NCBI RefSeq assembly: GCF_027497235.1
Contig: NZ_CP114902.1
Coordinates: 2,617,501-2,681,500, forward strand
Direction: 5' to 3'
From: Micromonospora sp. WMMD1128
GTDB taxonomy: Bacteria; Actinomycetota; Actinomycetes; Mycobacteriales; Micromonosporaceae
DNA: 64,000 nucleotides
The notes beneath the pieces were generated by a model, which was not told the DNA's origin, did no database searches, and saw nothing but the letters and a program-made list of their open reading frames with translations. Both the position numbers and the translations under genes were made by a program. Below are positions 27,395 through 37,871 of the stretch, piece after piece (position 1 is the first letter of the stretch; each line of letters begins with the position of its first letter).

Positions 27395-27506
27395 CCGCCC
27401 CCCACCCCACCGCCCCCGCCTCCCGATGCCGTGATGGGGTGTACGGGGCGTCGTGCGCGACGATCCGCGCTCCAACCTCACAACGGAAGCCACCCGGCGC
27501 GGCCGG

Positions 27507-27539
27507 CCGATCGGACGACGTGTCGCGTAGTCCGATCGG
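27507..27539. repeat. 10-bp perfect inverted repeat in the 27395-27730 gap
   Basis: CCGATCGGAC (27507-27516) and GTCCGATCGG (27530-27539) pair perfectly across a 13-base loop. It precedes the larger palindrome at 27575-27602. No gene is visible in the 336-bp gap. Confidence 0.85.
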
Positions 27540-27574
27540 TGGGACTCGGTGGCGGGTCTGTTAACGTTCTCATG

Positions 27575-27602
27575 CGGTCGGTCCCGTGCACGGGACCGAC
27601 CG
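27575..27602. repeat. 28-bp perfect palindrome upstream of the PD-(D/E)XK-like gene
   Basis: CGGTCGGTCCCGTG at 27575-27588 is followed directly by its exact reverse complement to 27602, with no loop. GTTAAC at 27560-27565 lies nearby, and a third short pair ACCGTCC/GGACGGT follows (about 27600-27628). A protein-binding site or cruciform is more likely than a terminator, as the nearest stop codon is 180 bases upstream. Confidence 0.95.
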
Positions 27603-27730
27603 TCCAAACCGGAACGCCATCGGACGGTGATGTCTTGATTCCGCTAGGTCGCGCTTCGTAGCGTGAGGCTCCGCAACCCCTCGGCCGGTGGGGCGCCGCC
27701 AGCGGCTGCGGTCGTCACTGTGGGGTGTGC

Positions 27731-28417
27731 ATGCTGATCGCCGGAGCCGTACCGGTCACGAGCGTCATGGCGGAGCTGCGCGCCGAGCGGTCCCTGTTCC
27801 ACTCCGAGGCCGACTTCCAACACGCGTTCGCCTGGACCGTGCGCCGCCTCGACGCGGGCCTCCGCGTCCGCCTGGAGGTGCGGCAGGAGGCGCGGCAGGA
27901 GCAGGACGAACACCTGGACCTGCTCTGCCACGGCCCGGCCGGCCGGACGGCGATCGAGTTCAAGTACTTCACCGCCCGGTTCAACGGCGTCGACCCGCAC
28001 ACCGACGAGGCGTACGCCCTGCGCAGCCACGCCGCCGCCGACGTGGCCCGACGCAACTTCGTCTTCGACATCGAACGGCTGGAACGCTTCGTCCGCGTCG
28101 GCCCGGCGCGGACCAACGGCCTCGCCCTCCTGCTCACGAACGCCCACGGGCTGTGGCAGGCCCCCGCCGTCGACCGGCCGACCCGGGACCGCGAGTTCCG
28201 GCTCCACGAGGGCCGCCGCCTCGCCGGCATCCTCAAGTGGGGCGTCGACGGACGCTACTTCCAGCCGAACCGGCGCCACCTCACCGGCGACTACCGGCTC
28301 GGCTGGCAGGATTTCACCGAACTGCCGGGGCGCAACGGCCGGTTCCGGTGGCTCGCCGTACCGGTGAATGCCGCCGACCCCCCGACGCCCGCCGGGCCGG
28401 GCGTGGGAAGGGACTGA
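27731..28417 (+). CDS. Hypothetical protein with a PD-(D/E)XK nuclease-like core
   Basis: A 228-residue protein I do not recognise as a named family. It has an early acidic helix (SEADFQHAFAWTV) followed by HLDLLCHGPAGRTAIEFKYF near residues 61-80, that is Asp-x(n)-Glu-x-Lys, the arrangement of the PD-(D/E)XK catalytic core (Asp and Glu-Phe-Lys). A later FDIERLERF helix and a DGRYFQPNRRHLTGDYRLGWQ region have no match I can name. No signal peptide or membrane segment. Starts are uncertain: ATG 27731, GTG 27725 or ATG 27767; none has a strong ribosome site. It is 4 bases ahead of the next gene, so they are probably co-expressed. The nuclease call is a motif-level inference. Confidence 0.6.
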   Translation: MLIAGAVPVTSVMAELRAERSLFHSEADFQHAFAWTVRRLDAGLRVRLEVRQEARQEQDEHLDLLCHGPAGRTAIEFKYFTARFNGVDPHTDEAYALRSHAAADVARRNFVFDIERLERFVRVGPARTNGLALLLTNAHGLWQAPAVDRPTRDREFRLHEGRRLAGILKWGVDGRYFQPNRRHLTGDYRLGWQDFTELPGRNGRFRWLAVPVNAADPPTPAGPGVGRD

Positions 28418-28421
28418 CCGC

Positions 28422-28967
28422 ATGGGCGTGGACGCTCGCCAGGCCGCCGACCGGACCCTCGAGTTCCTGAAGTCCCTCGCCGAGCGGCGGTACGACCGGG
28501 TGTGGACTCCGGACTTCCTGAGCCACGCCCCGGACGTGCGGGGCTTCGTCATCTTCCACGGCGGCGCGCTCGTGCTCGTCCACAGCGGGGTGGCGCCGGG
28601 GGAACCGACCCGCTGGCTGTTCCGGATGGCCTGCGCTCCAGGCGCGGACGTGACCGACACGGCCGAGGCGATGGAGTGGGCGAACATCAGGAACCGGCTC
28701 GCCGAGGGCGGGCGCTACTACTGCGTCGTCACCGCCGACCGGAGCGCCTGCCATGTGGTGTTCGCGCTCGACGTCTGGAGCCCGCTGCTGGCGGACGTGA
28801 CGGCGCCCGACGCGCAGACCGCCCGCGACCTGCTCGACGGCGCGCTCACGGTGTGCGTCCACAACGCCATCGCCGACTTCCGGGACCTGTCCGCCTACCT
28901 TCCGGCCCGACGGTTGGATCCCACCGAGGAGGACGCCTCGACGCTGTTCGCCTGCACGCGGCACTGA
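28422..28967 (+). CDS. Hypothetical protein, possibly YbjN-like
   Basis: A 181-residue soluble protein of mixed helix and strand. The pattern of a leading helix, then strands FVIFHGGALVLVHSG and WLFRMACAP, a helix (DTAEAMEWANIRNRL), strand YYCVVTADRSACHVVFALD and a long C-terminal helix resembles the YbjN/type III chaperone-like fold, but I cannot confirm this. GGGAAGGGA at 28404-28412 serves as the ribosome site. It directly follows the PD-(D/E)XK-like gene, so a two-gene cassette is likely. The last 73 bases overlap the end of a convergent gene on the minus strand. Confidence 0.6.
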   Translation: MGVDARQAADRTLEFLKSLAERRYDRVWTPDFLSHAPDVRGFVIFHGGALVLVHSGVAPGEPTRWLFRMACAPGADVTDTAEAMEWANIRNRLAEGGRYYCVVTADRSACHVVFALDVWSPLLADVTAPDAQTARDLLDGALTVCVHNAIADFRDLSAYLPARRLDPTEEDASTLFACTRH

Positions 28968-29242
28968 GCCGTACGCCGGGGGTACGCCGGCGCCGCCGCG
29001 GGACGCAGCCCGGCGAGCTGGACGAAGACCTCCCGCTTGGCGGTGGCGAGGCCACGACGGTCGACGACGTAGCCGGTCAGCCAGAGCCAGCCGAGGTGGG
29101 TCAGCTCGGGGCCGACCGACACGACCCGGAACGTCAGGGCGCGGTCGCCGCCGAACTGCACCGAGGCGCGGCCGTCGATCCGCAGCAGGTCACCCGGTTG
29201 TGGGAGCACCGCTACCAGTGGCCCTGGTTCGGTGGGCGGCAC
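28895..29242 (-). CDS. Small hypothetical protein downstream of the DivIVA-domain gene
   Basis: A 115-residue protein. The first 80 residues look genuine: LVAVLPQPGDLLRIDGRASVQF-like beta segments and TGYVVDRRGLATAKREVFVQ, a pattern I recall as a conserved actinobacterial partner of small DivIVA-domain proteins (recollection, not verified). The last 35 residues are basic and low in structure and are antisense to the end of the gene at 28422-28967; the stop may have been extended. GTG start at 29242, 30 bases inside the frameshifted DivIVA-domain gene's 3' end. Confidence 0.55.
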   Translation of the reverse strand: MPPTEPGPLVAVLPQPGDLLRIDGRASVQFGGDRALTFRVVSVGPELTHLGWLWLTGYVVDRRGLATAKREVFVQLAGLRPAAAPAYPRRTAQCRVQANSVEASSSVGSNRRAGR

Positions 29243-29489
29243 TCGCGGGCGTGCATGGCCTGCCAGTCGCGCAGCGCCCGCTTCAGCCGCTCGTTCTCCA
29301 CGTCAACCGGCGGATCTGCCGGTGCAGGTCGGTCAGCTCGTCGGCGACCTCGGTCTGGAACGCGCGTACCTGCTCGGGGTCGACGCCACGACGACGCGGA
29401 TCGAACGCGCGGGTCCGCGCCTCGCGCGGCGTCATCCGGGCCGGCAGGCCGGTTCCGTAGAGCTGGCCGGAGCGAAACACCTCGGTCAC
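29212..29489 (-). pseudogene. DivIVA-domain protein with a single-base frameshift
   Basis: From GTG 29489 the reading gives a DivIVA-type domain: MTPREARTRAFDPRRRGVDP near residues 19-38, then EQVRAFQTEVADELTDLHRQ, a coiled-coil start. It ends early at 29283 with the out-of-place RLTWRTSG. In the next frame the coiled coil continues as VENERLKRALRDWQAMHA and ends at 29212. Restoring one base in the run ACGTGGAG (plus-strand bases about 29299-29302) would give RLTVENERLK and one continuous protein of about 92 residues. So the gene carries a one-base deletion, or the sequence has an error. AAAGGA lies upstream of the start. Family members are small pole- or septum-associated scaffolds. Confidence 0.75.
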
Positions 29490-29516
29490 GTCGGTCCTTT
29501 CGCGGTTGCGTCCGCG

Positions 29517-29566
29517 CCTTTGGGTGCACTTGTGGTTGCCAGGGCAACAACAAGCGCACCCAAAGG
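29517..29566. repeat. 24-bp-arm inverted repeat upstream of the DivIVA-domain gene
   Basis: Left arm 29517-29540 (CCTTTGGGTGCACTTGTGGT...) and right arm 29543-29566 pair at 22 of 24 positions around the dinucleotide AG. It lies 27 bases upstream of the GTG start of the DivIVA-domain gene, in the region shared with the divergent GntR-like regulator; probably a regulatory or leader structure. Confidence 0.9.
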
Positions 29567-29683
29567 GCAGCGGCGATCGGAGACAGAGCGTTCCGGTGGG
29601 CCGGGACGGGCACGCGCACCCGCCCCGACCGGGGGAATGAGCCGAACTCGTTGCCACGCGAGGAGCGGCTCCGGTCCAACATA

Positions 29684-29698
29684 TCTAGACATGTCAGA
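29684..29698. promoter_or_regulatory. GntR-type operator-like palindrome
   Basis: TCTAGACATGTCAGA is an imperfect palindrome with the perfect core GACATGTC (29688-29695), located 67 bases upstream of the GntR-like gene. Sites of TCTAGACA type are known for actinomycete plasmid-transfer GntR repressors; binding by the adjacent regulator is inferred. Confidence 0.45.
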
Positions 29699-29764
29699 TG
29701 AGTCAACGCTGCTTGTTAGGCGCGTCGCGGTGTGATCGAATCGGATCGCCACGCGAGGAGTGCT

Positions 29765-30004
29765 ATGCGAGAAGTGCCGGATTACTGGCGCATCGCCGAT
29801 GACGTGATCGCCGATGTCAGGTCGAACAAGCTGAAGCCGGGGGACAAGCTGCCCTCGATCGTTGAGCTGCGCGAGAACTACCGCGTCAGCCACGGAACGG
29901 TCCAGATGGCCTATGCCCGGCTGGAAGCGCTGCGCGTGATCCGGCGTCAGCAGGGCAAGGGCGTCTTCGTCACCGACCCGAAGACGTGGATGCGCGAGCC
30001 GTAG
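29765..30004 (+). CDS. Short GntR-like winged-helix regulator
   Basis: A 79-residue protein consisting of only the GntR DNA-binding domain: YWRIADDVIADVRSNKLKPG, DKLPSIVELRENYRVSHGTV (recognition helix) and the wing RRQQGKGVFVTD. There is no effector domain, as in short GntR proteins linked to mobile or conserved actinomycete modules. The ATG at 29765 follows GAGGAG (29755-29760); the 13 bases GCCACGCGAGGAG around this ribosome site also occur at 29653-29665. It is divergent from the DivIVA-domain gene and likely controls it and itself through the palindromes between them. Confidence 0.88.
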   Translation: MREVPDYWRIADDVIADVRSNKLKPGDKLPSIVELRENYRVSHGTVQMAYARLEALRVIRRQQGKGVFVTDPKTWMREP

Positions 30005-30013
30005 ACAGCGGCG

Positions 30014-30784
30014 TCAGTCCAGCAGGGCACTCGTCCACTTGTCGGTGTGGCGCTCGGTGTAGTCGGCGTCGGCGCGCCACGTGTCGCCGTGCCCGGTCCG
30101 CCAGTGCGTCGCCCACGGCTCGACCCCGAGCGCGGCCTGATCGCGCAGGAAGTCGTGCATCGCCCGGGTCCGGACGGTCAGCAACGGCACCAGGTCGCGG
30201 CGCTGCCGTTCGTCCAACCCGTACGCGTCCACGAAGGCGCGCAGACGCTGCCCCGCGTCCGCCCGCTGCCAGTCATGATGCGCCGACAGCGGGACGAAGC
30301 CGTGCGCCGCGTAGGCGAGATCCCACAGCCGTGACCCGGGCCCGGCGTTGTCCCAGTCGATGACGACCCAGCGGTCCCCGATCACCAGGTTCCACGGCGC
30401 GAGGTCGTGGTGGACGATCATCTCGTCCCGGTCGGCCGGGATCAGGGCGTTCCATCGCGCGTCGGGCGGCGGCGTGAACGTCGCGAGCGCGTCGTGCAGC
30501 TCCCGCGCCAGCCGGCCCACCCGGGCGAGCTGGTCCAGCGGTGCGAGCAGGTCGAACCGGTGCGGCCAGGGCACCTCACCCGCCGCGTAGGTGAGCACCT
30601 CCCGCCCTTTCTCGTCGACACCGAGCGGCCGGGGCGCGCCCCGGAAACCGACCGACCGCAGGTGGCCGAGCAGCGCGTGCACCGCCGGGGTCCACGGACC
30701 GGCCTGCCGGCGTACGGTGTCCCCGACCCGCACCACGCCCGCCGTCACGTTCCCACCGGCGAGCGGGACCTCCTCCACGCTCAT
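30014..30784 (-). CDS. Aminoglycoside-phosphotransferase-family kinase
   Basis: A 256-residue protein with the APH/choline kinase fold. The catalytic loop is IVHHDLAPWNLVI (Brenner-type motif with the catalytic Asp) and the metal-binding motif is VVIDWDNAGPGSRLWDLAYA. The N-terminal lobe is short, with no classic lysine strand obvious. Substrate may be a small alcohol or antibiotic; family members often are not resistance enzymes. The ATG at 30782-30784 overlaps the stop of an upstream AraC-type fragment (ATGA), which shows it was once the second gene of an operon behind that regulator. Confidence 0.86.
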   Translation of the reverse strand: MSVEEVPLAGGNVTAGVVRVGDTVRRQAGPWTPAVHALLGHLRSVGFRGAPRPLGVDEKGREVLTYAAGEVPWPHRFDLLAPLDQLARVGRLARELHDALATFTPPPDARWNALIPADRDEMIVHHDLAPWNLVIGDRWVVIDWDNAGPGSRLWDLAYAAHGFVPLSAHHDWQRADAGQRLRAFVDAYGLDERQRRDLVPLLTVRTRAMHDFLRDQAALGVEPWATHWRTGHGDTWRADADYTERHTDKWTSALLD

Positions 30785-30873
30785 CCGCCCACGGTCCCGT
30801 CCGCGCGGAAGGCCCGCCGGAACGCGGAGGGCGAGGTGGTCGTCGCCCGTGCGACGTGCTGGCGACAGGTCAC
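30781..30873 (-). pseudogene. Relic of an AraC/GlxA-type regulator (C-terminal helix only)
   Basis: The frame ending at 30781 encodes RQHVARATTTSPSAFRRAFR followed by a ten-residue tail, which matches the last helix of the AraC-type DNA-binding domain as found in GlxA-like regulators. Nothing upstream in this frame continues the domain. A 28-residue open frame (30870-30956, starting MTVVPMRDNAGR) ends in a GTGA overlap with it. Most of the regulator gene therefore seems to be lost, with only its coupled 3' end kept ahead of the phosphotransferase gene. Confidence 0.6.
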
Positions 30874-31030
30874 GGTCTCTCGACCCGCACCGAGGGGAGG
30901 TGGGCCGGCACTGCCACCATCCGGCCGGCGTTGTCCCGCATGGGTACCACGGTCATGGCGCGACCGTAGCGGATGACCTACTGCCGGGGGCCGGCCTTGC
31001 GGCCGGAGACGAGATCGCCACACTGTAGCG

Positions 31031-31573
31031 GTGAACATGGGCAGGTATCTCAGGACGACGACGGCCCGCTTCGACGAGGTGACCGCGACCTTGTGGGACC
31101 CGGCCGAGGAGGAGGAACGCACGGAGGCCGGCGAGCGCCGCAAGGTCATCCTGGAGCAGTACAAGACATATGTCGAGATGGCCGACCGGGTGAGTGCCCG
31201 GCGCGGTCTCACCAACACGTTCTTCCTGAGTTTGAACACGCTGATCGCGACCGCCGCCGGGGTGGTCTGGCGCAGTCGCGGCGGCGTCGAGCCCAGCTAT
31301 CTGACCGTCCCGGTGGCGGCGCTGCTGTTGCAGTGTGCGGCCTGGTTCTGGCTGCTGCGTTCCTACCGCCAGCTCAACTCCGCCAAGTACGTCGTGATCG
31401 GCGCGCTGGAGGAGCGGCTGCCGGCCTCGCCGTACTGGCGGGCGGAGTGGAAGGCGCTCGGCGAGGGCCGTGATCCGTCGCGGTACTGGCCGTTGACCCA
31501 CCTCGAACAGTGGATACCCGTGTCGTTCGCCGTCGTCTACGTAACCGGATTCGCCCTGGCGATACTTGCCTGA
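31031..31573 (+). CDS. Octameric-type small membrane protein (RipA/8xMP-like)
   Basis: A 180-residue protein with three predicted membrane helices: about residues 60-78 (TNTFFLSLNTLIATAAGVV), 92-112 (VPVAALLLQCAAWFWLL) and 160-178 near the C terminus. The pattern YKTYVEMADRVSARR before helix 1, and after helix 2 LNSAKYVVIGALEERLPA with a Tyr-Trp-x-x-Glu-Trp stretch, matches what I know of the RipA-family octameric membrane proteins (recollection of the family, not checked). These are often found beside TIR and other immune-type genes. GTG 31031 and ATG 31037 are both possible starts. It is 97 bases ahead of the FxsC-like gene on the same strand. Confidence 0.7.
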   Translation: MNMGRYLRTTTARFDEVTATLWDPAEEEERTEAGERRKVILEQYKTYVEMADRVSARRGLTNTFFLSLNTLIATAAGVVWRSRGGVEPSYLTVPVAALLLQCAAWFWLLRSYRQLNSAKYVVIGALEERLPASPYWRAEWKALGEGRDPSRYWPLTHLEQWIPVSFAVVYVTGFALAILA

Positions 31574-31670
31574 GCAGCGGCTTCGTCGAACTGTCGGCAA
31601 ACGGACAATTGCTGCCTCCTCGGTCCTTGGTTCAGACTGTCTCCTCGGCGTCGGCGAGGGTGTGCAGGGG

Positions 31671-32936
31671 ATGTCATTTCTTTTCTTTCTCAGCTATAGC
31701 GGCGTTGACGGGAACGGCGTCTACGTCGGCGAGTTCTTCAAGGATCTGTCCGAGGAGATCCGGCGTAGCACCGACCTGGAGGAAAGCCGCATCGGGTTCG
31801 CGTACGGGGGGATGCGTGACGGGACACAGTGGCGCCCGACCGTCGCGAAGGCGCTCGCCACCTGCCGCGTGTTCGTGCCGCTCTACTCGCCGCGATATTT
31901 CCGGGCGCGCTTCTGCGGTCAGGAGTGGGGAATCTTCGCCGAGCGGCTGCGGGCGTACGAGCAGGAGCACGGGACCACGCCGGATCTGATCGTGCCGGTG
32001 CTGTGGGAAGACGTGTTCGACGACGGGCAACTCCAGATTCCGAGGCTCGCCGAGGACATCTGGGCCCGAAGCGGGACGCTCGGCGACGCCCAGAAACCGA
32101 CCGGCGTGCGCAGGTTGGTGCAGCAGAAGGCCAGATACCGCGACGAGTATCACGACGTGGTGTACCAGTTGGTCGCGCGGATCCGCGCCGTCGCCGCGGA
32201 ACACGACCTCCCGGCGTACGATGCGGCAATCGATTTTGACACCGCGGCGGACGTCTTCCGGCCTGCGGGCGACGGCGACGAGTGCCTGGTCCCCCGGCCG
32301 CGGCCGGGGGAACCGGGCACGAGCGGTCCGCGCCACGTGCACCTCGTGGTGGCGGCGCCAACCGCGACCGAAGCCGCGGAGAAGCGCACCGACGTGCACC
32401 GCTACGGGACACGCTCCGAGGACTGGATGCCCTACCTGCCGGAGGCGGTCAAACCCGTGGTGCGCTACGCGATGACGGTGGCCGACGAGCAGGACCTCAC
32501 CTCGCACCCGGTCGGTGCCGCCGAGAAACTGCCCGACCTGCTCGCCGACGCGGAGTCGGCGAACGAGTTGGTCGTCCTGCTTGTGGACGCCTGGGCCACA
32601 CTCATACCCGCCTACGTGGAGGCGCTGGCGCCCTACGACGATGGGTTCTACGGCAACTGCGCCGTGCTGGTGCCGTGGAACCCGGCGGACGAGGAGTCGA
32701 CGTCGAACGTGGCGGTGTTGAAGGAATCGGTGACGACGTTGTTCGCGAAGAACATCCGCGTGCCGCACCCGACCTTCCACCATTCGCTCCGCAATGTGGA
32801 CGAGTTCACCGACGCCTTGCGGCAGGTCCTCATCCGGACCCAGAAGTTCGTCTTCGAGAAGCACCCGGTGCCGGACTTCGCGGATGCCGCCCCGATCGTC
32901 GCCCGCCCGATCCTCGACGGGCCGGGTGCCGGCTGA
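31671..32936 (+). CDS. fxsC: FxsC-like protein: TIR domain plus FxsC C-terminal domain
   Basis: A 421-residue protein. Residues 1-170 form a TIR-like domain: MSFLFFLSYS at the first strand, CRVFVPLYSPRYFRA, then FCGQEWGIF, where Glu85 is in the place of the catalytic Glu of NAD-cleaving TIRs. Residues about 225-410 form the domain that defines FxsC of the FxSxx-COOH system (HVHLVVAAPTATE, GTRSEDWMPYLP and the repeated PVPDFADA end). The ATG at 31671 with AGGGG before it begins exactly at the domain; the longer frame from 31566 adds no structure. It shares a TGATG overlap with the next gene. Canonical FxsC occurs with the FxsA peptide and FxsB radical-SAM enzyme, neither of which is visible here. 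Confidence 0.78.
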   Translation: MSFLFFLSYSGVDGNGVYVGEFFKDLSEEIRRSTDLEESRIGFAYGGMRDGTQWRPTVAKALATCRVFVPLYSPRYFRARFCGQEWGIFAERLRAYEQEHGTTPDLIVPVLWEDVFDDGQLQIPRLAEDIWARSGTLGDAQKPTGVRRLVQQKARYRDEYHDVVYQLVARIRAVAAEHDLPAYDAAIDFDTAADVFRPAGDGDECLVPRPRPGEPGTSGPRHVHLVVAAPTATEAAEKRTDVHRYGTRSEDWMPYLPEAVKPVVRYAMTVADEQDLTSHPVGAAEKLPDLLADAESANELVVLLVDAWATLIPAYVEALAPYDDGFYGNCAVLVPWNPADEESTSNVAVLKESVTTLFAKNIRVPHPTFHHSLRNVDEFTDALRQVLIRTQKFVFEKHPVPDFADAAPIVARPILDGPGAG

Positions 32937-35900
32937 TGGGTGCCGACGTGACCGAGGGACGCATCGTCACCTTCTACTCGTACAAGGGCGGGACCGGCCG
33001 CTCGATGGCGCTGGCCAACATGGCCTGGATCCTGGCCAGCAACGGCCACCGCGTGCTCGTGGTGGACTGGGACCTGGAAGCGCCCGGCCTGCACCGGTAT
33101 TTCCACCCGTTCCTTCCGGACACGGAGTTGACCTCCACGACCGGCCTGATGGACATGTTCTGGAACTACGCGGCAGGCATGGTCGATCCGTCGCTCGACA
33201 ACCGCGAGGAATGGCGGGAGAAGCACGCCGACGTGTTGGAATACGCGGTGTCGCTGCGCCATCGTTTCGCCTTGGGCGGGTTCATCGACCTGTTGTCCGC
33301 CGGCCGGCAGGACCGGTCCTACGCGAGTCGTGCCATGTCGTTCGACTGGGACAACTTCTACGACCGGCTGCACGGTGGCTCCTTCATCGACGAGATGAGG
33401 GACAGCATGCGCCGGCACTACGACTACGTCCTGATCGACAGTCGAACCGGGCTGAACGACACCTCGGGCATCTGCACGGTGCAGCTTCCCGACATTCTCG
33501 TCATCTGCTTCACGCTCAACAACCAGAGCGTCACCGGAGCACTCGCCGTCGCGGACTCGGTCCGCCGGCAGCGCGCCGATCGTGAACTGCGCATCCTTCC
33601 GGTGCCGTCGCGGGTGGAGGACGGCGAGAAGGCCCGGCTGGAGACGGCCCGCAGCTATGTGCGCCACGGCTTCCGGCGTTTCCTCGACAATCAGAGTCGG
33701 GAGGAGCGGGACCGCTACTGGGGTGACGTCGAGATCCCCTACAAGATTTTCTACGCGTACGAGGAAATCCTGGCGTCGGTCGGCGACCGCCCCCACCAGG
33801 AGGGCACGTTGCTGGCCGCCTACGAGCGACTGACCGCACACGTGACGAACGGCCGGGTGACCGAGGCCGCGCCGCTGGGCGAGGTGGAGCGGGAGGCGCT
33901 GGTCCGACGCTTCTGGCGGCAGACCGTCGGAGTCAGCCTGTACGACTTCTTCCTCAGCCATCATCCCGCGGACCGGAAATGGGCCGAGTGGATCGCCGCC
34001 GAACTGGAAGAGGCGGGATATCGGGTCTCGGTCGGGTCGCGCGACCTTCGCCCCGGCGCCCGCTGGTCGGAGGAGATCGAGAAGATCATCCTGTCCAGCG
34101 ACGTGACGCTCGCGCTGCTGTCCCCCGCGGCGCTCCGATCGCCGGACGTCGCGCGGGAACGGCAACTCGCCCACGACATCGATCCGGGCGGCGAGGCCGC
34201 ACGCCTGGTCCCCGTGCAGGTCGTCGAATGCAGGATGCCGGCCGGGCTCGGAGATCTGAACGGCATCCGGCTGGTCGGCATCGACGAGAAGACCGCGCAC
34301 CAGCGGCTGCTCTCGGCGATCCGGCTGGTGCAGCCCCGGTCCAGCGGCCACCATCCCCGCCGCGAACCTGCGACGTTCCGCGACTTCCCCGGGCGGTTGC
34401 CGAAGATATTCAACGCGCCGCCGCGGCCGAAGGGCCTGGTGGGGCGGGAGGACGAGATCTTCGAGCTGTGGTCCGGTTTCGAGGGGCTCCGCGGCGGGGC
34501 GCAGGTGGTCTGCGGACCCGCCGGGGTTGGCAAGACGGCACTCGCCCTTGAGTTCGTCTACCGGTTCGCGCCCACGTACGACGCCGTCTGGTGGATCTCC
34601 GTTGGTTCCCGCGACGACATCGTTCTCGATATCTCGGAGCTTGCCGTGGCCCTCGGCGGCGCAAAGGGGCACGACCTGCACGAGCCGCTCCGGGAGCTGA
34701 TGTACCTGCTCGACGGCCGGCGGTGTCTGATGATCCTCGACAACGTCGAGGACGTCCGCAGCCGGTTCGCGGTCGCCCCGCCGCCCGGAGTGGACGTTCT
34801 CATCACCTCTCGGCTTCAGGCGTGGGGCTCGGACGTCGTCCGACACGAGCTGCCGGTCCTGTCCCCAGCGGAGTCCGTCGAGTTGCTCCGCCGCATCGAG
34901 CCCGACCTGAGCGAGGGATCCGCGCGGGAGGTCGCCGGTCTGTTGGGTGGCCTGCCGCTGGCGCTGCGGATGGTGGCCACCGATTCCACGTTGGCGGCCC
35001 AGCTTCGGGACGACTCCCAGCAGCGGTCGTTCGGCAACATCCTCGCGCCGGCCTGGAAATGGACGCGGCAGCGGCTGTGGGCCGACGAACCGGCCGCCGT
35101 CGAACTGCTGCGTGTCGTGGCGTTCTTCGCGCCCGAGCCGATCCCGGTCAGCCTTTTCGTCGACACCCCGGCCGCGGCGGACCACCCGGGCCTGCGGTAC
35201 GCGATGACGCGGGGCTCGAACTTCGAGGAGTTGCTGGCCCGGCTGCACGACTACAGCATGGTGGAGCGGGACGAGGACTGGTTCCGTGTGCATCCACTGG
35301 TACAGGCGACCGTGCGGGAGGAGTTGACCGCCGTCGCCCAGGAGTCGTACCGACGCCAGGGGGAGCGTCTACTCGTCTCCGCCCGTCTCGGCGACCCGGT
35401 CGACGCGCGTAGCTGGCCCCGCTACCGGCGGCTGCTCCCGCATGTGGTGGCCGCGGACTGGGCCCAGGGACAGTCGCTGCGGGCACTGGTGCTGCTCCTG
35501 TGCGGCTACCTCGCCGCCGCCGGTGAGATCGACCGGGCGAGGAGCCTGAGCGCGGAAGTGGTGGAACGCTTCACCGTGCTGCTCGGCGCGAACCACCGGG
35601 ACACGGTCGCGGCGCTGCACACCCTCGCCGCCGTGACCTGGCAGGCCGGTGACGGGGGTACGGCTCTCGATCTGGCCGGACAGGTCTGGACGCAGCGAGG
35701 CGACCTGCTCGGCCCGGAACACGGCGACACCCTCGCCGCTTTGAACAACTTCGCGGTGATGTTGTGGAGCCAGGGCCGGCACCACGAGGCGTTGAACCAG
35801 AACGAGGAACTCTTGACCCGGCGGCGGGAGACGCTCGGGCCTGACCATCCCGACACGCTTGTGGCCCTGGGCAACCGGGCGACGATGCTGTTCGGGGTGG

Positions 35901-36304
35901 GCCGGTTGCCGGAGGCGTTCGACTGCGAGCGGATCGTGCACGACATGCGGCTGAGACGACTCGGCGCGCACCATCCGCTCACCCTGGCGTCCCTGGAGAA
36001 CATCGCCTCGATCAAGCTCGAACTGGGGGAGAAACACGACGCCGCGGAGACCTACGAGTTGTTGGTCGAACGCTACGGCGCACTGCTGGGTTCCGATCAC
36101 CCGGATGCCTTACGCGCGATGTTCCTCTCGGCGCGGGCGAGACAGCGACTCGGCGAGGTGACCGCCGCACAACGCCTGCTCGCCGAGGCGTTGAGTCGGC
36201 AACAGCGGGTCCTGCCCGCAGAACATCCACAGCTTGCGGCGACCAGAGAACTGTTGCACGAGATTCAGGCGGCGATGAGCGACCAGGAACGGACGGGCAC
36301 CTGA
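32936..36304 (+). CDS. fxsT: FxsT-like protein: ParA-like ATPase, TIR, NB-ARC and TPR domains
   Basis: A 1122-residue multidomain protein. Residues 1-310: a ParA/MinD-like domain with signature Lys17 in YKGGTGRSM, but the invariant P-loop lysine is Arg22; the Asp44-Asp46 pair follows (VVDWDLEAPG). About 333-465: a TIR domain (YDFFLSHHPADRKWAEWI). About 497-800: NB-ARC STAND ATPase opening with GLVGREDEIF, Walker A GPAGVGKTA near 527, Walker B CLMILDNVED. About 840-1115: five or six kinesin-light-chain-type TPRs of 42 residues (LGPDHPDTL). This order matches FxsT of the FxSxx-COOH system. Leu1059 is a TTA codon (36110-36112). TGATG overlaps join it to both neighbours. Known STAND proteins oligomerise on sensing a ligand through the repeats; the trigger here is unknown. 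Confidence 0.85.
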   Translation: MGADVTEGRIVTFYSYKGGTGRSMALANMAWILASNGHRVLVVDWDLEAPGLHRYFHPFLPDTELTSTTGLMDMFWNYAAGMVDPSLDNREEWREKHADVLEYAVSLRHRFALGGFIDLLSAGRQDRSYASRAMSFDWDNFYDRLHGGSFIDEMRDSMRRHYDYVLIDSRTGLNDTSGICTVQLPDILVICFTLNNQSVTGALAVADSVRRQRADRELRILPVPSRVEDGEKARLETARSYVRHGFRRFLDNQSREERDRYWGDVEIPYKIFYAYEEILASVGDRPHQEGTLLAAYERLTAHVTNGRVTEAAPLGEVEREALVRRFWRQTVGVSLYDFFLSHHPADRKWAEWIAAELEEAGYRVSVGSRDLRPGARWSEEIEKIILSSDVTLALLSPAALRSPDVARERQLAHDIDPGGEAARLVPVQVVECRMPAGLGDLNGIRLVGIDEKTAHQRLLSAIRLVQPRSSGHHPRREPATFRDFPGRLPKIFNAPPRPKGLVGREDEIFELWSGFEGLRGGAQVVCGPAGVGKTALALEFVYRFAPTYDAVWWISVGSRDDIVLDISELAVALGGAKGHDLHEPLRELMYLLDGRRCLMILDNVEDVRSRFAVAPPPGVDVLITSRLQAWGSDVVRHELPVLSPAESVELLRRIEPDLSEGSAREVAGLLGGLPLALRMVATDSTLAAQLRDDSQQRSFGNILAPAWKWTRQRLWADEPAAVELLRVVAFFAPEPIPVSLFVDTPAAADHPGLRYAMTRGSNFEELLARLHDYSMVERDEDWFRVHPLVQATVREELTAVAQESYRRQGERLLVSARLGDPVDARSWPRYRRLLPHVVAADWAQGQSLRALVLLLCGYLAAAGEIDRARSLSAEVVERFTVLLGANHRDTVAALHTLAAVTWQAGDGGTALDLAGQVWTQRGDLLGPEHGDTLAALNNFAVMLWSQGRHHEALNQNEELLTRRRETLGPDHPDTLVALGNRATMLFGVGRLPEAFDCERIVHDMRLRRLGAHHPLTLASLENIASIKLELGEKHDAAETYELLVERYGALLGSDHPDALRAMFLSARARQRLGEVTAAQRLLAEALSRQQRVLPAEHPQLAATRELLHEIQAAMSDQERTGT

Positions 36305-36708
36305 TGGATCCGGTGGTGATGTCGCTGGCCCGGCAGGCCGGTCAGGCGGTCGTGGCCGCGATGGCCTCCGAGATGTGGCCGATCCTGCGTGACCGGCTGA
36401 CCCGGCTCTACGCCCGGACGAGCGAGGGCCGGGCCACGGAGGTCGCGGACGCGCTGGAGGATTCCCGCCGGGCCGTGCTGGGCGGGAACTCTTCACCTGA
36501 CATCGTGGCCACTCGCTGGCAGGGCCGGTTCGAGGCCATGTTGGAGGTGTACCCGGATCAACTCGAGCCGCTGCGCGAGGTTGTCGTCGGGGCGAGCACC
36601 GAGGCGGAAACCGATCCGGGCCAGGTGTTCCGGGTCGGCAGCGGCACGTTGCTCGGCCACGGCCAGATCGTCGCTCACAACACCGGCGGCGGCATGATCT
36701 GGCCCTGA
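36304..36708 (+). CDS. Small partner protein of the FxsC/FxsT-like operon, function unknown
   Basis: A 134-residue protein whose ATG overlaps the FxsT-like stop (TGATG). Residues 1-100 are helical (QAGQAVVAAMASEMWPILRD and YARTSEGRATEVADALEDS), with no membrane segment. The tail changes character: VFRVGSGTLLGHGQIVAHNT then a Gly-rich end GGGMIWP, with glycines every few residues, like a short beta-solenoid strand or a display tag. It does not end in Phe-x-Ser-x-x, so it is not an FxsA precursor. The strict coupling suggests it is produced in proportion to the STAND protein and may bind or be modified by it. Confidence 0.7.
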   Translation: MDPVVMSLARQAGQAVVAAMASEMWPILRDRLTRLYARTSEGRATEVADALEDSRRAVLGGNSSPDIVATRWQGRFEAMLEVYPDQLEPLREVVVGASTEAETDPGQVFRVGSGTLLGHGQIVAHNTGGGMIWP

Positions 36709-36893
36709 GGCGCGACGGTTCCCGCCCAACCGGCGCACCGGCCCGTCCGCATCCGCCATCGCGTGTTCACCGGGGGTTCGGGGCGCGGTCGCCGGGTGAG
36801 GGCTGTACGCCGGGCAGGATCCTCGGCAGACTGAGCGCCGGCCATCCAACGACGATGGTCAATGTCATGTCCGGTTCGCTCAAGGAGGATCCC

Positions 36894-37334
36894 TTGACCC
36901 CGTTCCGCGTCGCCGCCACCCGCGTACGCCGCGCCCTGGCCGCGTCCGCCCTGGTCACCGCCCTGGCCGCCGTCGCGCTCGTCGCACCGGCCACCGTCTC
37001 CACCCGACTCGCCGAGCCCGCCCGGGCCGCCGTCTACAGCTCCTGCACGCTGTCCCGCTGCGCGGACGCGCGCACCGCCCGATCCGGGTGGTCGGCGAAG
37101 AGCTTCCCGACCAGCCGCGGCTGGTACTCGTGGAGCGGCGGCACGTGCAACTTCGCCGGCGGGCAGTTCTACAACCGCGAGGGTCAACTGCCCGCCAACG
37201 CCACCTACTACGAGTACGACGTCTACCCGCGCGCCTGCAACGCCTCCCGCGACGCGTACCGGATCGTGGTGAACAAGAGCACCGGGACGACCTGGTTCTC
37301 ACCCGACCACTACGCCAACTTCTACCGGCTCTGA
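36894..37334 (+). CDS. Secreted guanyl-type ribonuclease (N1/T1, RNase Sa-like)
   Basis: A 146-residue secreted RNase. A Sec signal peptide covers about residues 1-45 (ending EPARA-AVYSS). The mature domain contains FAGGQFYNREGQLPANATYY, with catalytic Glu107 (YYEYDVYP), Arg119 or Arg123 (SRDAYRIVV) and His139 (SPDHYANF), the Glu-Arg-His set of the RNase Sa/barnase superfamily. Four cysteines (51, 56, 85, 115) could pair. The start is taken as TTG 36894 because AAGGAGG (36883-36889) sits five bases before it; the in-frame ATG at 36855 has no ribosome site and would add 13 residues ahead of the signal. A barstar gene follows 99 bases downstream. Confidence 0.88.
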   Translation: MTPFRVAATRVRRALAASALVTALAAVALVAPATVSTRLAEPARAAVYSSCTLSRCADARTARSGWSAKSFPTSRGWYSWSGGTCNFAGGQFYNREGQLPANATYYEYDVYPRACNASRDAYRIVVNKSTGTTWFSPDHYANFYRL

Positions 37335-37354
37335 GTCGTACCGGCTCTGAGCTT

Positions 37355-37370
37355 GTGCCGGTACCGGCAC
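37355..37370 (+). terminator. 16-bp perfect palindrome after the RNase gene
   Basis: GTGCCGGTACCGGCAC is self-complementary and lies 20 bases after the RNase stop, before the barstar gene; it may terminate or attenuate read-through. TACCGGCTCTGAG, which includes the stop codon, is duplicated just before it. Confidence 0.45.
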
Positions 37371-37433
37371 TGACGCACGTCGACGCCGGCCGGGCGCCCG
37401 CTCCGGCCGGCGCCGACCGGAAAGGACGGATCG

Positions 37434-37871
37434 ATGGGCGCAGCGTCCCCGCAGCCGCCGGCCTGGCTCACGCTCGACCCCGACTCCGCGCCCGAGCCGG
37501 CAGGCGTGCCGGTCCCCGGTGCGGCCACCCGCACCCGGGCGGCCCTGCACGACACGCTCGCCGTGGCGATGTCCCTGCCCGACTGGTACGGCCGCAACTG
37601 GGACGCCCTCGCCGACGCCCTGGCCGACGTCCTCACCGACCGGATCGGGCCGGACCCGTTGACCCTCGTCGTGCGGGACGCGGCGAACCTGCTCGCCGAC
37701 GAGCCGCCCGCCCAGCTCGGCACGTTCCTCGACGTGCTCGGCGCGGCAGCCGCCGGTGGTCATGCCAGCCTGCGGCTGGTGCTGCGCGACACCCCCGAGC
37801 GGCTGTCCGCCCTGCGCGACCGCATCGCCGCAGCCCTGGGCGGTCACGTCGGCGCCCCCGAAGCCACCTGA
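37434..37871 (+). CDS. Barstar-family RNase inhibitor
   Basis: A 145-residue cytosolic inhibitor expected to bind and block the adjacent RNase before export. The barstar core is visible as SLPDWYGRNWDALADALADV (residues 47-66), matching the family's helix and loop that plug the RNase active site, and LRLVLRDTPERLSALRD near the end. AAAGGA at 37421-37426 precedes the ATG. It is about 50 residues longer than classical barstar because of an N-terminal extension. It lies downstream of the RNase gene on the same strand. Confidence 0.9.
   Translation: MGAASPQPPAWLTLDPDSAPEPAGVPVPGAATRTRAALHDTLAVAMSLPDWYGRNWDALADALADVLTDRIGPDPLTLVVRDAANLLADEPPAQLGTFLDVLGAAAAGGHASLRLVLRDTPERLSALRDRIAAALGGHVGAPEAT

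Follow-up and report, generated by a model that had tools for sequence, protein, structure and literature searches.

Peptide systems of the FxSxx-COOH (fxs) type, which carry an AP-ATPase and an inactive MinD/ParA-like domain, are treated as standalone peptide-processing systems in a passage of Kaur et al. (2020, eLife, PMC7159879), where the FxSxx peptide is proposed to be a toxin or a signal that amplifies the core system. Neither 8xMP nor FxsC is mentioned in the main text of that paper. As for Thoeris, a passage of PMC12847820 presents types I, II and IV, none of which uses 8xMP there, with a type II effector that perturbs the membrane; it also reports TIR proteins that act alone by depleting nicotinamide adenine dinucleotide (NAD). 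Here, we describe a locus of four genes (A to D) in Micromonospora sp. WMMD1128, in which proteins of the FxsC and FxsT families stand beside an 8xMP membrane protein and a small protein. The locus lies in the 64,000-nucleotide stretch analysed (the window; contig NZ_CP114902.1, positions 2,617,501 to 2,681,500) of a 6.81 Mb genome in one contig.

We hold, with about even confidence, that genes A to D form a free-standing conflict cassette, probably anti-phage and abortive, in which TIR chemistry triggered by a STAND protein drives the 8xMP protein as membrane effector. Titles and abstract starts yielded no literature describing a TIR-8xMP system. Since type III Thoeris exists by name in a passage of PMC12390725 that does not give its make-up, the TIR-8xMP pair may already be known under that name. 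No literature on an AP-ATPase with FxsC and without a peptide was found either, and the single proteins of the cassette are already named by NCBI.

The four-gene cassette and its relation to the fxs systems

The preliminary description of this DNA had drawn an 8xMP protein, a TIR-FxsC protein, a ParA-like/TIR/NB-ARC/TPR protein and a small protein. This picture is borne out by profile matches, by the TGATG joins and by the gene order in two relatives. The features, all on the forward strand, are the following.

31037..31573, +, gene A, 178 amino acids (aa), 8xMP membrane protein (PF24838, 7e-45, 152.6 bits, cut-off 30)
31671..32936, +, gene B, 421 aa, TIR plus FxsC C-terminal domain (NF040588, 2.7e-42; TIGR04276, 7.8e-31)
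31680..32198, +, TIR (FxsC_Nterm) domain of gene B, residues 4-176 (144.8 bits, cut-off 130)
31923-31925, +, putative catalytic Glu85 of gene B (alignment column)
32337..32855, +, FxsC_Cterm domain of gene B, residues 223-395 (107.4 bits, cut-off 55)
32936..36304, +, gene C, 1122 aa, FxsT-like STAND protein (NF040586, FxSxx_TPR, 1.9e-117, 393.8 bits, cut-off 300)
32960..33559, +, KGGVGR-variant ParA/MinD-like domain of gene C (AAA_KGGVGR), residues 9-208, motif KGGTGRS (NF047398, 5.4e-44, 150.8 bits, cut-off 90; alignment)
33947..34309, +, TIR domain of gene C, residues 338-458 (TIR_2, 2.1e-28, 99.7 bits, cut-off 28)
34157-34159, +, putative catalytic Glu408 of gene C (alignment column)
34508..34978, +, NB-ARC (STAND) NTPase of gene C, residues 525-681, Walker A GPAGVGKT (PF00931, 5.5e-10, 39.4 bits, cut-off 23.5; alignment)
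35612..36202, +, TPR (kinesin-light-chain-like) region of gene C, residues 893-1089 (TPR_10, TPR_12)
36304..36708, +, gene D, 134 aa, role unassigned (no family)

Gene A comes first, 97 bases before gene B; the B-C and C-D junctions both read TGATG, and gene C overlaps the stop of gene B by one base. The order A-B-C-D is kept in Micromonospora sp. RP3T (locus L060, genome G245) and in M. solifontis (L059, G239). The identities of A, B, C and D to the window are 87.6, 79.1, 78.1 and 92.5% in RP3T, and 82.6, 63.7, 66.3 and 69.4% in M. solifontis. The ratio of nonsynonymous to synonymous substitution rates (dN/dS) is 0.16-0.36 for each gene in both pairwise comparisons, which indicates purifying selection. 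TGATG recurs at the B-C junction in both relatives and at C-D in one, the other having a 21-nt gap. Genes A to D are a real cassette, whose order is conserved in the two relatives beyond chance.

The homologue lists, together with the two relatives, also upheld the claim that the membrane protein and the small protein are conserved with the FxsC/FxsT pair. The protein database gave six homologues of gene D (61-97% identity), five of them with a source name, always Micromonospora. Gene B has eight homologues at 60% or more, including the window's own protein and one fragment, and the next ones reach at most 36% over most of the length. Gene A has 1844 homologues at E<=1e-3, the best 120 of which supplied the details used here; several bear the NCBI name RipA family octameric membrane protein. 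In M. carbonacea (ABT344_19060/19045) and Micromonospora sp. S4605 (DLJ47_28245/28260), the locus tags of A and D lie fifteen numbers apart, as would be expected of a four-gene set numbered in fives.

Gene B passes both the N- and C-terminal FxsC models and gene C the FxsT cut-off; the ParA-like/TIR/NB-ARC/TPR order of C is that of the other scanned FxsT proteins, and C is the same kind of AP-ATPase as in the passage of Kaur et al. In contrast, the peptide genes are the core of the systems described in that passage and are missing here: the locus lacks FxsA, FxsB and the hydroxylase, and adds 8xMP and gene D. FxsB had no match in the window at E<=10, and FxsA had none among the 150 of 510 first-look candidates that were scored. 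Two open reading frames (ORFs) ending in FxSxx were present at 26-42 kb of the window; both overlie genes B and C in another frame and are thus probably due to chance. The TPR array of C is shorter, ending about 164 alignment columns before most other FxsT. A tree of 53 sequences sets the C proteins of the cassette apart as a clade, with support 100 and a stem of 1.62.

The preliminary description had called the locus one without FxsA or FxsB. This is correct for the locus and not for the genome, which holds both at 5.77 Mb, 3.1 Mb from the cassette, in an fxs locus with FxsT, FxsA, FxsB and an HExxH hydroxylase. The FxsA, FxsB and hydroxylase genes score above their cut-offs, and no other FxsB of the genome does, nor any other FxsA among the 150 of 510 candidates scored. 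FxsC_Cterm has no match at this fxs locus, and that of gene B is the sole match of the genome at E<=0.001. In the host family, FxsC_Cterm occurs in 118 of 354 genomes at E<=1e-5 (110 above cut-off) and FxsB above cut-off in 225. The expected companionship of FxsC and FxsB is indeed the rule, with FxsB in 114 of the 118 FxsC genomes (Fisher p 1.8e-23, nominal as the genomes are related). FxsC genomes without FxsB are G062, G100, G239 and G245, the last two being two of the three cassette genomes; a looser search of the four gave no FxsB above cut-off (G239 is 93% complete and G100 94%). The best FxsB scores in the two cassette relatives were 90 and 83 bits, against a cut-off of 370. An FxsB-like gene was in view in 27 of 31 other chosen FxsC regions (L088-L118), the rest being L090, L106, L110 and L117.

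As FxsB is missing from the two relatives, against its presence in 114 of 118 FxsC genomes, the FxsC/FxsT pair of the cassette is free-standing, as had been proposed. Co-conservation of the cassette with fxsAB was rejected on the absence of FxsB from G239 and G245. An fxsA-fxsB pair elsewhere in the genome, which the preliminary description had named as refuting if co-conserved, does exist, but its occurrence is not co-conserved with the cassette, because it is accompanied by a separate FxsT and two cassette relatives are without FxsB. Descent of the cassette from the FxsC-FxsT pair of FxSxx-COOH loci, followed by uncoupling from FxsA and FxsB, is part of the whole explanation given above and is put forward with the same balanced confidence.

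Three observations concern other genes of these families. In the FxsT of the host fxs locus (L014, G000:C1:5764000-5783999), the ParA motif is degenerate and the TIR weak, and a 260-aa neighbour there matches no family. A third FxSxx_TPR protein (590 bits, above cut-off) lies away from both cassette and fxs locus (L017, G000:C1:6138428-6140308). Finally, G062 carries two FxsC-like genes (33-38 bits to B; L061, G062:C68:256000-272000), in a genome without an above-cut-off FxsB and with no FxsT called alongside.

The preliminary description had also counted two TIR domains, and both have a Glu in the putative catalytic column, which we take to be the catalytic residue of TIR enzymes. For gene C, the column holds Glu in 3/3 cassette proteins and in 0/37 other FxsT with a residue there, although 17 of the 37 have one nearby; 13 more are gapped. 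For gene B, it holds Glu in 3/3 cassette proteins and in 30/40 other FxsC with a residue there (two gapped). The TIR_2 score is 99.7 bits for C and 104.8 for its RP3T counterpart, compared with 48.6-70.2 for four other FxsT and 22.9 for the host's own FxsT. Gene C matches ThsB of PADLOC weakly (16.4 bits). As an observation on fxs systems in general, an inactive/active TIR pair is suggested by the same columns, Glu being found in none of 37 FxsT (L014, L088-L138) and in 30 of 40 FxsC TIRs, with the alignment caveat of the 17 FxsT just mentioned.

Gene A could also start at a GTG at 31031. Two of its hydrophobic segments exceed the threshold (about 88-111 and 158-180), and a third membrane segment (about 62-82) is assumed only. 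Its AlphaFold2 (AF2) monomer model is poor, with a mean predicted local distance difference test (pLDDT) of 64.5, so the fold-match list means little; the PDB fold search with this model gave no match at E<=0.001, and the sequence found no solved relative at E<=1. For gene C, a PDB kinesin light chain matches residues 894-1089 (3.4e-14). No Pfam, NCBIfam or PADLOC family was found for gene D at E<=1. The protein is predicted to fold as a five-helix bundle (3-102) with a disordered Gly-rich tail (103-134), the AF2 pLDDT being 91-97 in blocks of residues 1-90, 81 in 91-100 and under 50 in 103-134; the fold search of the PDB gave no match at E<=0.001. The idea that D is a split-off C-terminal domain of FxsT was rejected (profile comparison probability 0.2%); the extra part of other FxsT resembles additional TPRs.

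8xMP genes beside TIR genes

By PF24838 searches, 8xMP is present in 27 of the 354 genomes of the family (E<=1e-8) and in 9 of the 394 of the class (E<=1e-25), the host genome being in both sets. After removal of the three cassette loci, these gave 23 chromosomal loci. A TIR-type gene was found within 1 kb on the same strand in 7 of the 23, within 1.5 kb on either strand in 11, and within 3 kb in 12. As a background, twenty arbitrary 20-kb stretches from 20 carrier genomes (400 kb) contained no TIR when run against the TIR and ThsB profiles used for the loci, a search that did not cover CAP12-type TIRs such as that of L066. Gene C and four of the counted loci served as seeds for the local TIR profile, and five for the ThsB profile. 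Above-cut-off Pfam matches confirmed TIR-type genes at L065, L066, L067, L074, L075, L076, L120, L124 (a TIR-TPR gene) and L125; the TIR of L068 is below the Pfam cut-off (21.1 of 28), and those of L069 and L072 were seen by local profiles only. Eleven further loci (L077-L087) stand outside the count, nine being unmatched by the local 8xMP profile and two weakly matched; among the nine, L081 and L086 each contain a single TIR, more than 3 kb away.

Some of the chromosomal loci have further contents. At L075 (8382-11712), 8xMP is flanked by a cyclic-nucleotide-binding plus TIR protein and by an opposite-strand ThsB_TIR gene. At L074 and L076, 8xMP and a small TIR protein lie near a TIR-CHAT-AAA-TPR protein of 1755-1771 aa, and L074 has an additional gene whose start resembles DnaK. 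At L123 (9058-10217), 8xMP is directly 3' of a 162-aa protein of SLOG-like appearance (15.5 bits to YpsA, below cut-off).

Of 24 plasmid records matching 8xMP, 19 were viewed (three Leptolyngbya, Natronomonas and Halorarius being the others) and 16 of these are annotated. In 14 of the 16, 8xMP directly follows a TIR-type gene, with anything from an 8-base overlap to a 23-base gap between the two. Twelve are annotated TIR genes (Synechococcus, Polaromonas, Novosphingobium, Paenarthrobacter and eight haloarchaea; L188, L190, L191, L194-L200, L202, L203), one encodes a TIR-NB-ARC protein and one, on a Leptolyngbya plasmid, a weak TIR (18.7 bits, cut-off 28). Four (L196, L197, L202 and L203) share one arrangement, so the independent cases are about 11 at most. 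No TIR is immediately 5' of 8xMP in Streptomyces sp. NBC_00984 or in Acaryochloris, where a TIR lies 2.5 kb upstream, and local profiles found no TIR in the unannotated records L184 and L192.

All eight annotated TIR neighbours scanned with Pfam (the 12 minus L197, L200, L202 and L203) pass ThsB_TIR, at 27.9-69.4 bits with a cut-off of 21.2, and all nine scanned 8xMP neighbours are above the 8xMP cut-off. In PADLOC, the best matches of four plasmid TIRs are ThsB models (22-52 bits), while PADLOC (2023 models) matched 0/6 8xMP proteins, namely gene A and five plasmid ones. The annotated plasmid TIR plus 8xMP, which spans cyanobacteria, alpha- and betaproteobacteria, an actinobacterium and haloarchaea, has the look of an independent two-gene system. 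Some of these pairs lie near restriction or helicase genes, and defence genes are often found near genes of these kinds.

The closest parallel to A plus C is on Rhizobium leguminosarum pRL22b6 (L189), where an NB-ARC-annotated protein with an N-terminal TIR is 1 nt from 8xMP. Unlike C, it has WD40 and not TPR repeats, and no FxsC or ParA-like domain was seen there.

Two plasmid records deserve a separate mention. In the unannotated Paracoccus pPAN3 (L201, 915-3282), a ThsB-like ORF stands beside what seems to be a broken 8xMP gene, present as two separate pieces. In L194 (1-3438), from a conjugative plasmid of Paenarthrobacter, a caspase-family gene lies about 1.7 kb upstream of the TIR-8xMP pair.

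Proposed mechanism and alternatives

If the cassette works as a conflict system, the TPR end of C would sense a trigger and its NB-ARC ATPase would oligomerise, as is suggested by its family. This clustering would switch on the TIR of C, the partner TIR of B, or both, with NAD cleavage as the expected activity given the Glu seen in the column. An NAD-derived product, or contact with the TIR assembly, would then open or assemble the 8xMP protein A, which would damage the membrane so that the cell stops, a step to which the recurrent TIR-8xMP gene pair elsewhere points. Gene D may be a small helical adaptor or a brake, which is a guess. We infer the defence purpose of the cassette from sequence.

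The cassette was compared with three described kinds of system. In Thoeris (a ThsB TIR with a ThsA of SIR2-SLOG, TM-macro or caspase-like type), a TIR product drives a separate effector, and the cassette would follow a similar logic; the scanned plasmid 8xMP partners are ThsB_TIR as well. The cassette differs in that its TIRs are not ThsB_TIR and a STAND protein is added, and Pfam and PADLOC found no ThsA-type domain (SIR2-SLOG, TM-macro, caspase-like) in A-D. The best reading is thus Thoeris-like logic, not membership of Thoeris. With STAND (AP-ATPase) conflict proteins, C shares an NB-ARC with intact P-loop, a repeat sensor and an effector domain. SLATT effectors, in the passages describing them, are small membrane proteins beside nucleotide-signal enzymes of conflict systems, as 8xMP is. 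At E<=10, however, 43 relatives of 8xMP matched 17 Pfam families, none of them SLATT, and membership of 8xMP in SLATT was rejected on this ground.

Several observations weigh against this explanation. The order of the cassette, with 8xMP first and 97-109 nt between A and B, is reversed compared with the plasmid pairs, and B and C match TIR_2 and not ThsB_TIR (PF08937) at E<=1. Gene A matched no PADLOC model. A search of 50,697 phage records gave no 8xMP match, so no phage-borne copy supports a role in defence. The missing Glu of other FxsT may be partly an alignment matter, an alignment slip being conceivable because 17 of 37 have a Glu one (nine proteins) or two (eight) places earlier. Lastly, a TIR-type gene within 3 kb is lacking at 11 of the 23 chromosomal 8xMP loci, and likewise at the 11 low-scoring loci L077-L087.

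The count of 11/23 would also fit another scheme, which we consider unlikely, in which the TIR domains are the effectors themselves, NAD depletion stops the cell and 8xMP merely anchors the complex at the membrane. The Glu in both TIRs is compatible with it, as are the TIR proteins reported to act alone in the passage of PMC12847820. However, recurrence beside ThsB_TIR genes, seen from archaea to proteobacteria, is not required of an anchor, and of the 41 residues invariant in 8xMP, 29 fall outside the membrane segments assumed, seemingly more than an anchor needs. The membrane protein had been called effector or anchor in the preliminary description; of the two, effector is favoured, because 8xMP is often the direct neighbour of TIR genes elsewhere.

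Membership of C in a protein family tied to FxSxx peptides raises the question of kin or self/non-self recognition, with the TPR protein sensing modified FxSxx-type peptides from neighbouring strains and triggering altruistic death. The toxin or signal role proposed for the peptide in the passage of Kaur et al. would agree with this. Nevertheless, nothing indicates peptide binding by C and its TPR array is the shorter one described above, and we judge this explanation quite improbable.

Very doubtful, in our opinion, is that the cassette is a split-off arm of the FxSxx-COOH system of the same genome, sensing or answering in trans the FxsA peptide made 3.1 Mb away. The host does have FxsA, FxsB and hydroxylase genes above cut-offs, and the window supplies the one FxsC_Cterm match of the genome; yet an FxsT is already present at the fxs locus, and FxsB is missing from the two cassette relatives (one genome being 93% complete). 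That the cassette is a decaying leftover of an fxs locus, as the missing peptide genes and the few carriers (8xMP and FxsC are side by side in 3 of 354 family genomes) might suggest, is scarcely credible given that all genes are open and under purifying selection (dN/dS 0.16-0.36) and that the C proteins form their own long-stemmed clade.

Returning to the conflict cassette with an 8xMP effector, we tentatively extend it, with less than even confidence, to a general class: 8xMP would be a TIR-product-gated membrane effector serving both two-gene ThsB-like systems of bacteria and archaea and TIR-STAND systems, and in the window a peptide-linked FxsC/FxsT pair would have been rewired to 8xMP, the STAND protein itself bearing a TIR capable of catalysis. 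The locus sets the alarm half (FxsC, FxsT) of a peptide system common in actinobacteria apart from the peptide half, which makes the alarm half testable alone. Moreover, TIR enzymes from haloarchaea to proteobacteria repeatedly have a membrane partner that, in six such proteins, none of the 2023 PADLOC models matched, and the two-gene plasmid loci of Synechococcus, Polaromonas, Paenarthrobacter and haloarchaea are a short list on which the idea is directly testable. Should type III Thoeris consist of ThsB and 8xMP, the pair would be known already, and the FxsC/FxsT wiring would be the one new element.

Genomic site of the cassette and neighbouring genes

The flanking HD gene was detected in 146 of 160 genus genomes, and 20 flanks, among the best matches of these 146, were compared. 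None of genes A-D was present at the comparable site in 20/20 flanks (own gene calls), and all 20 retain the block partly or wholly, with the ABC transporter on one side and the RNase-barstar-HD gene on the other. As none of the four genes is at these sites and other genes occupy the space, genes A-D seem to come and go together.

The variable site covers about 27400-36850 of the window, between the ABC transporter and the RNase-barstar-HD block, and its contents differ among Micromonospora (L164-L183). Just downstream of the cassette (36855-37871) are a ribonuclease-family gene (PF00545) and then a barstar inhibitor gene, a flank conserved in most cassette-free relatives. In several Micromonospora the site holds a 957-aa gene, whose RP3T copy is an M36 peptidase.

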